From Leptolyngbya iicbica LK (lineage in GTDB: Bacteria; Cyanobacteriota; Cyanobacteriia; Phormidesmidales; Phormidesmidaceae): DNA of 64,000 nt. The stretch is taken from the NCBI RefSeq assembly GCF_004212215.1, contig NZ_QVFV01000001.1, positions 878,814 through 942,813 on the forward strand. Reading direction: 5' to 3'. Of the stretch, positions 1 to 16,534 are shown one piece after another. The notes below the pieces were generated by a model. That model was not told the origin of the DNA. It was given only the letters and a program-made list of their open reading frames with translations, and searched no databases. Position 1 is the stretch's first letter. Every line of letters starts with the position of its first letter. Both the position numbers and the translations under genes were made by a program.

Positions 1-1200
1 GGGAATGGCGAGGTTTTGGGCAATGCGCCAGATTTTCTCCCCTTCTTCGATCATCTTGGTTTTGAGCCGATCGCTCACTTCGGCCTCAGTCCAATACAGA
101 CCGCTACGATTTTGCACCCACTCGTAATAGCTGACGATGACGCCTCCGGCATTCACCAAAATATCGGGGAAGACGTACACGCCTTTATCTTCCAGAATGC
201 GATCGCCCTCGGAAGTGATCGGCCCGTTCGCGACCTCAAAAATGTATTGCGCTTGAATCTGGGCAGCATTGTCAGCGGTGATCTGATTTTCCAGCGCGGC
301 AGGAATCAGGACGTCCACATCGAGCGTCAGCAGTTCTTCATTGGTGAGGGTATCGTGGCCATCCACCAAATTACAGACGGTGCCCTCGCAGTAAACCGCT
401 TTGAGGCTGCGGGTCGAGGCTTTGAACTGTTGCAGACTGGGGATGTCGAGGCCGCGATCGCAATATACGCCGCCGCGCGAATCACTCACCGCCACCACTT
501 TGTACCCCGCGTCAAATAGCAGCCGCGCAATGACACTACCGGCATTGCCAAAGCCCTGCACCGCGACCGTCGTCTCGGCGGGCACGCGGTCAAACTTCGG
601 CAACATCGCCTGCAACACGTAAAACGCTCCCGTGCCCGTAGCGCGATCGCGTCCTTGACTGCCGCCCATCCCCAAGGGCTTGCCCGTAATCACCGCCGGG
701 CATAACTGGCGGCGAATGATGCTGTACTGATCCATCATCCAACCCATGATCATCGGGTTGGTGTAAACATCCGGCGCAGGAATATCGATATCCGGGCCAA
801 TAAAGTCGGCGATCGCGTCCACATAGCCCCGACTCAGCCGTTCCAGCTCAAACTTCGACAACTCTTTGGGGTTCAGCGTGATGCCGCCCTTAGCGCCGCC
901 AAAGGGCAAGTTCACCGCCGCACACTTAAACGTCATCCAAAACGCCAGCGACTGCACCTCATCCATACTGACGTTGGGGTGAAAGCGTATGCCTCCCTTA
1001 GTGGGTCCCCGAGTGTCGTCATAACGGACCCGATAGCCCTCAAACACGCGCAGCGAGCCGTCATCCATCCGCACGGGAATGGAGACTTTAAGACTCGCTT
1101 TGGGAAATTGCAGGCGCTCACTCGCATCTTCAGAAATTTGCACATGTTTAAGCGCCCGAGCCAGCCGCCGATTTGCATCCGACAATAATGAAGCTGTCAT
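1..1200 (-). CDS. gdhA: Glu/Leu/Phe/Val-family dehydrogenase, probably glutamate dehydrogenase (3' end cut by window)
   Basis: Reversible oxidative deamination of glutamate to 2-oxoglutarate and ammonium; a cytosolic enzyme at the carbon/nitrogen branch point. The minus-strand frame is open for 400 codons from ATG 1200 to the window edge, so the last ~30 residues of a ~430-residue enzyme are missing. Visible landmarks are KGGIRFHP, the catalytic-lysine motif PFGGAKGGI, DIPAPDVYTNP, the GGSQGRDRATGTGA segment that enters the nucleotide-binding domain, and the Rossmann motif VQGFGNAGS. The start is supported by GAGGT 5 nt upstream. It diverges from the large signalling gene at 1493, and an NtcA-type box lies about 65 bp upstream. 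Leucine or valine dehydrogenase is the alternative reading, but the GGSQGR..ATG context fits glutamate dehydrogenase better. Confidence 0.93.
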   Translation of the reverse strand, partial: MTASLLSDANRRLARALKHVQISEDASERLQFPKASLKVSIPVRMDDGSLRVFEGYRVRYDDTRGPTKGGIRFHPNVSMDEVQSLAFWMTFKCAAVNLPFGGAKGGITLNPKELSKFELERLSRGYVDAIADFIGPDIDIPAPDVYTNPMIMGWMMDQYSIIRRQLCPAVITGKPLGMGGSQGRDRATGTGAFYVLQAMLPKFDRVPAETTVAVQGFGNAGSVIARLLFDAGYKVVAVSDSRGGVYCDRGLDIPSLQQFKASTRSLKAVYCEGTVCNLVDGHDTLTNEELLTLDVDVLIPAALENQITADNAAQIQAQYIFEVANGPITSEGDRILEDKGVYVFPDILVNAGGVIVSYYEWVQNRSGLYWTEAEVSDRLKTKMIEEGEKIWRIAQNLAIP

Positions 1201-14494: not shown

Positions 14495-15352
14495 TCAGAC
14501 TAAGGCGGGTTCCTGCGGGGCGATCGCTTCAGGCATCCGCCGCCCCACGGCAGTGGCAATGGGTCGCAGGCTCTCGACCAGAGCGGCCATATCCTCTAAC
14601 GACAGAGCTTGACGGGCATCCGACACGGACTCTTCGGGCACGGGGTGACACTCAATCATGAGACCGTCGGCCCCCGCCGCGATCGCCGCCCGCGCCAAGT
14701 TGGGCACCAGTTCGCGCTTGCCCGCCGCATGGCTGGGGTCAACAATCACCGGCAAATGGGTGATTTGCTTCAGAGCCACGACCGCCCCCAGATCCAACAC
14801 ATTGCGGGTGTAGGTATCGAAGCTGCGAATGCCCCGCTCACAGAGGATGATGTTGGGGTTACCGTGAGCGGCGATGTACTCAGCCGCCATGACCAGTTCT
14901 TGAATGGTGGCCGCCAGTCCGCGCTTCAGCACGATGGGCTTGTCAACTTTGCCGAGGGCTTTGAGCAAGTCGAAGTTCTGCATGTTGCGGCTACCGACTT
15001 GTAAGGCATCAGCATGGGCCGCGATCGCCTCAATTTGATGAATCGCCATGACTTCGGTAATCACGGGCAGGTGATAGCGCCGCCGCACCCGATCCAAAAT
15101 GGCTAATCCGGCTTCGCCCATCCCTTGGAAGGCGTAGGGCGAGGTGCGGGGCTTGTAAACGCCGCCGCGCAACGCCTGGATCGTGCGCTGACCCAGTCGA
15201 GTCGCGATCGCTTCCATCTGATCGAGACTTTCGACCGAGCAGGGACCGCCGACAATGAGCAGTTCATCGCCGCCGACGGTGACTTGCTCATTTAGGGCGA
15301 TCACCGTGCCGTGGTCGTCATGGGCTTTAGCGGTGAGTTTGGCGTCTTGCAT
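14495..15352 (-). CDS. aroF: 3-deoxy-7-phosphoheptulonate (DAHP) synthase, type I-beta
   Basis: First step of the shikimate pathway: phosphoenolpyruvate plus erythrose-4-phosphate to DAHP, leading to Phe, Tyr, Trp and other aromatics. The 285-residue protein has the KDO8P-synthase-like I-beta signatures GGPCSVES (metal-ligand Cys), RGGVYKPRTSPYAFQG, EVMAIHQIEAI, VGSRNMQNFDLLKALG, KRGLAATIQE, CERGIRSFDTYTRN, DPSHAAGKRELV and ECHPVPEESVSDARQAL. There is no regulatory ferredoxin-like, ACT or chorismate mutase domain, so allosteric feedback by aromatic amino acids through such a domain is not expected. That fits control at the RNA level: two leader-peptide attenuators precede the gene. ATG 15352 follows an AAGGA stretch. 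Confidence 0.96.
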   Translation of the reverse strand: MQDAKLTAKAHDDHGTVIALNEQVTVGGDELLIVGGPCSVESLDQMEAIATRLGQRTIQALRGGVYKPRTSPYAFQGMGEAGLAILDRVRRRYHLPVITEVMAIHQIEAIAAHADALQVGSRNMQNFDLLKALGKVDKPIVLKRGLAATIQELVMAAEYIAAHGNPNIILCERGIRSFDTYTRNVLDLGAVVALKQITHLPVIVDPSHAAGKRELVPNLARAAIAAGADGLMIECHPVPEESVSDARQALSLEDMAALVESLRPIATAVGRRMPEAIAPQEPALV

Positions 15353-15411
15353 GGATTGGATTCCTTGTTGATAGTGGTTGGATAACGGTCAGTCGAACAT
15401 TCGCAGCATTG

Positions 15412-15448
15412 AAAAACCCCCGGGTCGTCTAGGACGCTCCGGGGGTTT
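15412..15448 (-). terminator. Attenuator terminator 2, upstream of aroF
   Basis: On the minus strand AAACCCCCGG pairs with CCGGGGGTTT (10 bp) with an inner CGTC/GACG helix, ending in TTTTTC. It lies 60 bp before the aroF ATG and after leader peptide 2, so it terminates the aroF transcript itself. Its 5' arm is also claimed by the antiterminator. Confidence 0.85.
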
Positions 15449-15482
15449 GATTAACAGGCATCACAGCCTCGTCACCCGGAGC
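15436..15482 (-). promoter_or_regulatory. Antiterminator pairing 2
   Basis: In the transcript GCTCCGGG (15482-15475), made of the last codons of leader 2, is a perfect 8-nt complement of CCCGGAGC (15443-15436) in the 5' arm of terminator 2. The two pairings exclude each other. A ribosome stalled on the upstream Phe run leaves the first strand free; one at the stop codon covers it. Confidence 0.7.
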
Positions 15483-15540
15483 AAATCCTAGTGAAAAAGA
15501 AAAAGCTAAAAAGCCAGTAAGCCGAAGCGGAATAAAACAT
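15472..15540 (-). CDS. aroF leader peptide 2 (aromatic-rich, 22 aa)
   Basis: ATG 15540 to TGA 15472, 22 residues. Residues 2-16 read FYSASAYWLFSFFFF: six Phe, two Tyr and one Trp in 22 positions, with four consecutive Phe codons at 15504-15493. Such a run is very unlikely by chance just ahead of an aromatic biosynthesis gene. It is followed at once by terminator 2. No strong Shine-Dalgarno is visible, which is common in cyanobacteria. Its role is inferred to be sensing charged Phe/Tyr/Trp tRNA through ribosome stalling. Confidence 0.8.
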   Translation of the reverse strand: MFYSASAYWLFSFFFFTRICSG

Positions 15541-15582
15541 GATGACGAGCCGGGTGGGTGAGACGATAATCCCTAAAAACGC

Positions 15583-15608
15583 AAAAACCGCAGAGCGGGT
15601 CTGCGGTT
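15583..15608 (-). terminator. Attenuator terminator 1, upstream of leader 2
   Basis: On the minus strand AACCGCAGA pairs with TCTGCGGTT (9 bp) around CCCGC, followed by TTTGCGTTTTT. It is a compact intrinsic terminator placed between leader peptides 1 and 2. Confidence 0.85.
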
Positions 15609-15652
15609 CACTAGAAGAGTTCAGCACAAGCTAAATTCACACCTAGTGAACC
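15605..15652 (-). promoter_or_regulatory. Antiterminator pairing 1
   Basis: In the transcript GGTTCACTAG (15652-15643, including the leader 1 stop codon) is a perfect 10-nt complement of CTAGTGAACC (15614-15605), whose AACC is the start of the 5' arm of terminator 1. Formation of one helix prevents the other. Confidence 0.7.
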
Positions 15653-15696
15653 TCCTCAAAAAACCAAAAATAAAATTGCTCTGCGCGGAATTGCAT
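15643..15696 (-). CDS. aroF leader peptide 1 (aromatic-rich, 17 aa)
   Basis: MQFRAEQFYFWFFEEVH, from ATG 15696 to TAG 15643: five Phe plus one Tyr and one Trp, six of them consecutive (FYFWFF, 15675-15658). The frame stays open upstream to 15906, but that extension would begin upstream of the proposed promoter and looks non-coding. It is the first of two leader peptides in the aroF transcript; the stop codon lies inside the antiterminator strand. Confidence 0.8.
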   Translation of the reverse strand: MQFRAEQFYFWFFEEVH

Positions 15697-15721
15697 GTGT
15701 CTTGAAATTAACGCTTGGTAC

Positions 15722-15750
15722 AGGGTAACAATGGAATTCGGAGGCGTCAA
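15722..15750 (-). promoter_or_regulatory. aroF: Candidate promoter of the aroF leader transcript
   Basis: On the minus strand TTGACG (15750-15745), a 17-nt spacer and TACCCT (15727-15722) resemble a sigma-70 promoter. The predicted start near 15715 leaves about 20 nt before leader peptide 1 and would put both attenuators in one transcript. The -10 box keeps the essential TA...T but is otherwise weak. Confidence 0.55.
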
Positions 15751-15988: not shown

Positions 15989-16534
15989 ATGCTTTCCGAC
16001 CTTCAAAAGCGCAAGTTAACCAAGCTGTTTAGCCTATACGACTCAGACTATACGGGCGTTTTAGTCAAACAAGACTTTGAGCTCATGTTCAAAAAGCTCT
16101 CTAACCTGCGCGGTTGGTCAAAGCGATCGCCCCGTTGCATCGTGCTCGAAGATAAACTCATGCGCCAGTGGCAGGGACTAGAAGCCAAAGCCGATACCCA
16201 CCACAATGACGAAATTTCGTTGAGTGAGTGGTTTGCATATTACGAAGACATCCTGGCCGACGCCAGCGCCAGCCCGGAAATGATTGGCGATTTGATTGAG
16301 TTAGTGTTTGATGTCTTTGACCAAGACGAAGATGGCCGGATTAATCAAGCCGAATGGGGCCAGTTACTCGCCGTTTTTAACGAATCCCCCGTGTATGCGC
16401 CATTGGTATTTCCGCAACTCGACCAAGACCAAGACGGCTTTCTGACCAAAAACGAGATGCGGGGCTTGTTCATTAATTTCTGCTATAGCGACGACCCCGA
16501 TGAAGTTGCCAACCACATGTTTGGCCCGTACTAA
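15989..16534 (+). CDS. EF-hand calcium-binding protein
   Basis: A 181-residue cytosolic protein expected to bind Ca2+ as sensor or buffer. Calcium loops are DSDYTGVLVKQD (18-29), DTHHNDEISLSE (69-80, lacking the position-6 Gly), DQDEDGRINQAE (111-122) and DQDQDGFLTKNE (145-156). The last two are canonical, the first two weaker. The four-hand layout recalls calexcitin or sarcoplasmic calcium-binding proteins, also seen in other cyanobacteria. There is no signal peptide. It converges with the PilB-N-like gene, 72 bp away, and diverges from the aroF leader. Confidence 0.92.
   Translation: MLSDLQKRKLTKLFSLYDSDYTGVLVKQDFELMFKKLSNLRGWSKRSPRCIVLEDKLMRQWQGLEAKADTHHNDEISLSEWFAYYEDILADASASPEMIGDLIELVFDVFDQDEDGRINQAEWGQLLAVFNESPVYAPLVFPQLDQDQDGFLTKNEMRGLFINFCYSDDPDEVANHMFGPY

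Follow-up and report, generated by a model that had tools for sequence, protein, structure and literature searches.

Two probable ribosome-mediated transcription attenuators in series ahead of the DAHP synthase gene aroF of cyanobacteria

What role might be played by two short open reading frames (ORFs) crowded with codons for Phe, Tyr and Trp, each followed by an intrinsic terminator, when they lie between a promoter and the gene for DAHP synthase, the enzyme that opens the pathway to the aromatic amino acids? This arrangement is found in Leptolyngbya iicbica LK, in a stretch of 64 kb (referred to here as the window) in which the minus strand carries, in this order, a promoter, leader 1, terminator 1, leader 2, terminator 2, and aroF. 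The analyses described below argue that the 5' leader of aroF contains, downstream of a single promoter, two successive ribosome-mediated transcription attenuators of the classical kind, each opened by ribosome stalling at Phe, Tyr or Trp codons, a reading to which a probability of about 0.9 is assigned.

The promoter, leaders, terminators, and aroF of a preliminary description of this DNA were all recovered where it had placed them on the minus strand, and its counts of aromatic residues in both leaders are correct (Table 1). When both strands of the window were scanned for ATG-initiated ORFs of 8–45 amino acids with at least five Phe, Tyr or Trp residues in eight codons, only leaders 1 and 2 were retrieved, and in both cases the next element is a terminator, ahead of aroF. 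Terminator 2 was missed by a simple terminator scan and was found by comparing hairpin folding with shuffled sequences, which is stronger than in the shuffles at both gates (z of -2.2 for gate 1 and -5.4 for gate 2). Inspection by eye revealed no obvious Shine-Dalgarno sequence ahead of the leaders. The divergent neighbour on the plus strand (15989–16534) is an ORF of 181 amino acids with EF-hand-like motifs (DQDEDGRINQAEW and DQDQDGFLTKNEM), which makes it a candidate calcium-binding protein.

Table 1. Features of the aroF leader region, with positions in the window
Feature	Position	Strand	Details
Sigma-70-type promoter TTGACG-17-TACCCT	15722..15750	-	TTGACG 15750-15745, 17 nt, TACCCT 15727-15722
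Leader peptide 1, MQFRAEQFYFWFFEEVH	15643..15696	-	7/17 residues aromatic; regulatory codons F-Y-F-W-F-F
Antiterminator 1, 5' arm, GGTTCACTAG	15643..15652	-	overlaps the end of leader 1 and its stop codon
Antiterminator 1, 3' arm, CTAGTGAACC	15605..15614	-	common to the terminator 1 stem; helix of 10 bp
Intrinsic terminator 1	15575..15609	-	stem 15609-15585 and U tract
Leader peptide 2, MFYSASAYWLFSFFFFTRICSG	15472..15540	-	9/22 residues aromatic
Antiterminator 2, 5' arm, GCTCCGGG	15475..15482	-	at the end of leader 2
Antiterminator 2, 3' arm, CCCGGAGC	15436..15443	-	common to the terminator 2 stem; helix of 8 bp
Intrinsic terminator 2	15411..15448	-	stem 15448-15414 and U tract
aroF, 285-aa type I-beta DAHP synthase without ferredoxin-like regulatory domain	14495..15352	-	

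The key element, absent from the preliminary description, is an antiterminator at each gate which excludes the terminator and is excluded by it. Each gate shows three features of a leader-peptide attenuator: a run of codons for the end products of the pathway, an intrinsic terminator, and an antiterminator that shares an arm with that terminator.

The same layout is present throughout the family of the window, in which 39 related genomes were searched and the DNA upstream of the gene was inspected. Among 90 non-redundant loci, 83 possess the two leaders with their two terminators, in unchanged order (79 identified by script and four, L042, L049, L054 and L093, by reading), three hold gate 1 alone (L025, L056/L072 and L096), three hold gate 2 alone (L065, L087 and L099), and one holds neither (L105). 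A model built from gate 1 (R1, alignment A2) matches 37 genomes in a phylum-wide sample of 386, with one match per genome, and finds a single match in the genome of the window even at E values up to 10. The corresponding model of gate 2 (R2) gives 36 strong matches (E < 1e-6), all of them at the same loci, while scattered matches with E between 1e-5 and 1e-2, mostly in small genomes of family f40, were treated as noise. The pair is conserved across many cyanobacterial families, with carriers that include Nostoc, Desmonostoc, Calothrix, Iningainema, Scytonematopsis, Hydrococcus, Laspinema, Symploca, Drouetiella and Leptolyngbya-like strains, as well as in non-photosynthetic relatives, the Obscuribacterales, in which both gates are kept. 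The comparison with relatives that the preliminary description had proposed thus shows the aromatic codons and the hairpins conserved in close and distant genomes alike. The distance between stop codon and terminator stem is also narrowly distributed, with medians of 28 nt for gate 1 and 24 nt for gate 2.

No related leader was found in the same genome before the trpE-like gene, pheA or the other two DAHP synthase genes. The trpE-like gene (L154, G000:C6) directly follows an ORF that ends in FSGKEPYEV and resembles psaD of photosystem I; the terminator between the two lies just after the psaD-like ORF, and no aromatic leader is present.

Regarding the amino acids that the leaders could read, leader 1 of cyanobacteria contains at least one Phe, one Tyr and one Trp in 82 of 82 loci, and its Trp codon is invariant in all 80 aligned windows. 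Leader 2 contains Phe and Trp in 78 of 78 loci and Tyr in 76 of them. At the peptide level, the motifs YFYFWF and WFYGFYFWP are conserved. The preliminary description had suggested that the gates might weight Phe separately from Tyr/Trp, an idea that finds no support, as both leaders read all three; since the two gates read the same signals, a division of labour between them is unsupported. The leaders of Obscuribacterales depart from this composition, with a cluster that is essentially Tyr-only (e.g., MSARRYYYYYPNEVHPQ and MLMTQSYYYYRRMLRGSPR) on an unchanged RNA skeleton, which suggests, judging from sequence, that the amino acid sensed has changed there while the switch has stayed.

Both gates appear to lie on one transcript, because a promoter motif (TTGACN-16..18-T(T/A)NNNT) precedes leader 1 in 82 of 83 loci, against 2.7% in shuffled sequences, and the same motif occurs neither between the gates (0 of 53 loci) nor between gate 2 and aroF (0 of 82 loci).

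Both alternative folds of both gates are supported by covariation. In antiterminator 1, 96.8–99.2% of the cells are paired and 23–35 cells have changed on both sides; at 96.8% paired, the 35 double changes compare with 9.1 in shuffles, and none of 500 shuffles reaches that number. About 99% of the cells of terminator 1 are paired (99.4%), with double changes above all 500 shuffles. For gate 2, the antiterminator is 91.1% paired, with 27 double changes versus 11.2 in shuffles (0/500), and the terminator 91.9% paired, with 27 versus 7.9 (0/500). As the loci are phylogenetically related, these shuffle counts, like the Fisher value for the association between gates and enzyme, should not be taken as true probabilities. 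Changes in the shared arm are matched in both of its partners, as illustrated by columns 24/74/86 of gate 2, which read T-A-T in 14 rows and C-G-C in seven. An alignment-free comparison leads to the same picture: cognate duplexes between the leader end and the terminator arm are more stable than non-cognate ones, with -22.6 versus -18.6 kcal/mol for gate 1 and -16.0 versus -14.4 kcal/mol for gate 2 (0 of 5000 permutations in each case). Duplexes across the two gates are near the shuffled level.

The effect of a ribosome on these folds was modelled by masking its footprint to +12 from the A site and computing the probability of the antiterminator before the 3' arm of the terminator is made. For gate 1 this probability is 0.99 with the ribosome stalled and 0.30 with the ribosome at the stop codon (n = 83), and for gate 2 it is 0.92 and 0.10, respectively (n = 81). 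The outer pairs of the terminator, computed in the full transcript, rise from 0.34 to 0.83 in gate 1 and from 0.56 to 0.90 in gate 2 on moving from the stalled position to the stop. Masking a footprint always lowers pairing to some extent, and the comparison of cognate with non-cognate duplexes is the better control. Within limits, the modelled geometry is one in which a stalled ribosome would free the antiterminator and a ribosome at the stop would block it. The modelled switch is incomplete in gate 1, where the probability of the antiterminator at the stop exceeds 0.2 in 47 of 83 loci. In gate 2 of the window, equilibrium in the full transcript favours the terminator (P of about 0.9) even when the ribosome is stalled, so this gate would have to act through the order of synthesis, that is, under kinetic control. 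Without a ribosome, the model predicts antitermination at gate 1, contrary to enteric trp, where termination is the default. Equilibrium folding of full transcripts was dropped as a test of the switch, since part of the terminator 1 stem coexists with the antiterminator and the terminators of gate 2 dominate; it was replaced by folding before the 3' arm and by the outer stem pairs.

Conservation, covariation, promoter placement and modelled stalling support the earlier proposal of two ribosome-mediated attenuators behind one promoter. According to this mechanism, a ribosome would trail the RNA polymerase through the short aromatic-rich ORF of each gate. When tRNA charged with Phe, Tyr or Trp is scarce, the ribosome would stall in the aromatic cluster, leaving arm A (the 3' end of the leader ORF) free to pair with arm C (the 5' side of the terminator), and the polymerase would read through. 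When all three amino acids are plentiful, the ribosome would reach the stop codon and cover A, so that C would pair with D and transcription would end. The gene aroF would be transcribed only when the polymerase clears both gates. Leader translation, stalling, antitermination in vivo, and a response equal to the product of the two gates are what we infer from the architecture of the locus. Because the two gates share the same signals, the second probably serves to lower leakage and to steepen the response, approximately to the product of two; such a multiplicative response, which the preliminary description had raised, would be plausible.

This mechanism would provide transcriptional end-product feedback for a DAHP synthase isoenzyme devoid of an allosteric domain. 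The AroF of the window holds the DAHP_synth_1 domain and lacks the ferredoxin-like domain PF18152, with a match that begins at residue 70 of chain 1rzm, in agreement with the initial view of an enzyme without an added regulatory domain. PF18152 is also absent from the four gated relatives tested (L034, L052, L100 and L103) and present in the distant cyanobacterial DAHP synthases tested; for the remaining DAHP synthases, domain content was judged from frame length (mostly ~335–370 aa) and match start. An AroF-type enzyme (at least 65% identity, or the split copy of G411) was found in 37 of 386 genomes, and all 37 carry at least one gate: 35 carry both, G150 only gate 1 and G177 only gate 2. The other 349 genomes yielded no match to gate 1 except G068 (L064, G068:C48:71500-76500). 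This candidate for a gate without its gene was rejected, as gate 1 is fused there to an internal piece of aroF; the locus is a decay remnant that has lost the terminator arm and most of aroF. In a phylogenetic tree, the enzymes of cyanobacteria and Melainabacteria and one from Blastocatellia form a single branch with a support of 100. The genome of the window encodes two further PF00793 proteins of ~380 aa and no class II DAHP synthase was found in it; since the cell has these two further enzymes, control by RNA covers one isoenzyme.

Several individual loci deserve mention. In L073 (G411:C1:3949500-3959500, minus strand; family f22, with Nostoc-like loci), aroF is split by ~5.8 kb of DNA that has a 16-bp direct repeat (TACGCTTTCCAGGGAA) at its borders, and an ORF for a recombinase of the phage-integrase family lies just inside the 5' junction. 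This insert is reminiscent of the excisable elements that interrupt genes in heterocyst formers, which have been surveyed with no mention of aroF (PMC4874684). Four loci of Acidobacteriota (L142, L153, L133 and L141) show single aromatic-rich leader ORFs (e.g., ..YRFWYWYF..), with a terminator between the ORF and the DAHP synthase gene, and are possibly independent attenuators; the enzyme of L142 lacks PF18152. In L158 (G374, same phylum, another class, family f50), one leader (MMKRFYYFSFYPNALRC) and a terminator lie ahead of a DAHP synthase with ~56% identity.

Other explanations of this region have been considered. Only one of the gates might work, the other being a copy in decay or a plain terminator that happens to follow a chance ORF. 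One gate is missing from six loci, so that neither is strictly needed everywhere, and gate 2 of the window is thermodynamically biased to termination; nevertheless, 83 of the 90 loci have kept both gates with their aromatic codons and both alternative helices, which covary separately, and the losses go in both directions, which argues for each gate being sufficient by itself rather than for one of them being defunct. This explanation is improbable. Even less credit is given to the proposal that the ORFs encode functional hydrophobic micropeptides and that the terminators merely end small transcripts. The leaders are indeed conserved as peptides, but this conservation is concentrated in the aromatic codons, their C-termini follow the RNA pairing, they always lie ahead of aroF alone, and those of Obscuribacterales have become poly-Tyr on the same RNA skeleton.

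A long structured leader before an amino-acid biosynthesis gene could also be a riboswitch, a T-box or the target of an RNA-binding protein that senses aromatic amino acids directly, without translation. However, neither a T-box nor any other Rfam cis-regulatory family reaches its gathering score in the window, where a loose threshold gives only weak matches (NsiR1, E = 0.03; Phe_leader, E = 0.95). In addition, the structure consists of the A:C/C:D switch only, with no conserved aptamer-like core, and the spacing between the end of the in-frame aromatic codons and the terminator is nearly constant, all of which makes direct sensing very improbable. A different proposal, which would add to attenuation rather than replace it, is that the terminated leader RNAs or their peptides have a further role in trans, like the one reported for peTrpL from the trp leader of Sinorhizobium (PMC7298713). 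Under repletion the two gates should yield discrete terminated RNAs of roughly 130 and 300 nt, and the gate pair has been retained over great distances, which would suit such a role; as the sequence indicates no target, an additional function of this kind seems unlikely.

The proposed attenuation in two steps by ribosome stalling has partial counterparts in other bacteria. The enteric trpL and pheL leaders share with the aroF region a leader ORF with regulatory codons and an antiterminator that competes with an intrinsic terminator, but they are single gates of other genes (trpE and pheA). Contrary to them, arm A of the present locus is located within the leader ORF, at its 3' end, and its pairing with C is direct, and the window scores 19.9 bits with the Rfam family RF01859 (Phe_leader), below its gathering score of 55. 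Another counterpart is aroR-aroF from Corynebacterium glutamicum, for which leader-peptide attenuation of a DAHP synthase gene has been described (Neshat et al. 2014, via PMC11802643; PMC4046766). There, a leader peptide with Phe-Tyr-Phe lies directly upstream of the gene and transcription attenuation involves ribosome stalling, with a reported response to Phe and not to Tyr (PMC11802643; PMC4046766). As far as the available descriptions go, that actinobacterial system is set apart by its one gate and by the lack of a Trp codon in the motif described. In Acholeplasma, the uORFC-13-1 motif is a predicted upstream ORF with Phe codons and a terminator before aroF (PMC8632094); it is presented as a single element restricted to this genus, and its description mentions neither a tandem nor a cyanobacterial form. 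Two short ORFs and two attenuation events on one transcript are known from the Salmonella mgtCBR leader (PMC3641672), whose two signals are different (ATP and proline), while the gates of aroF share one set of three amino acids; the two systems also differ in gene and phylum.

According to a 2016 study of leader genes, attenuation in cyanobacteria lacks reliable data (PMC4833913), and no reliable report of such control in this phylum was found in the open journal literature. A doubled, same-signal, phylum-wide cyanobacterial attenuator of DAHP synthase therefore appears to be new. The novelty suggested in the preliminary description stands for cyanobacteria in the open literature, but not for leader attenuation of DAHP synthase as such, already known from C. 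glutamicum (PMC11802643).

The locus offers a conserved cyanobacterial case of attenuation with covariation for both alternative folds. Cyanobacteria and their relatives in the Melainabacteria probably use classical ribosome-mediated attenuation, doubled long ago, whose two gates, placed in series and reading the same signal, would sharpen the feedback on a DAHP synthase without the regulatory domain. If this is true, RNA polymerase and the leading ribosome would be closely coupled on the aroF leader of cyanobacteria, and the region would constitute a tandem attenuator whose signals are redundant and not distinct. Transcription-translation coupling in cyanobacteria becomes testable at this locus in culturable strains of Nostoc, Calothrix or the Leptolyngbya type, as do the contribution of a second gate with the same signal and whether the loss of the allosteric domain accompanies feedback at the RNA level. 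The feedback on DAHP synthase is, moreover, an engineering target for the production of aromatic compounds in cyanobacteria.
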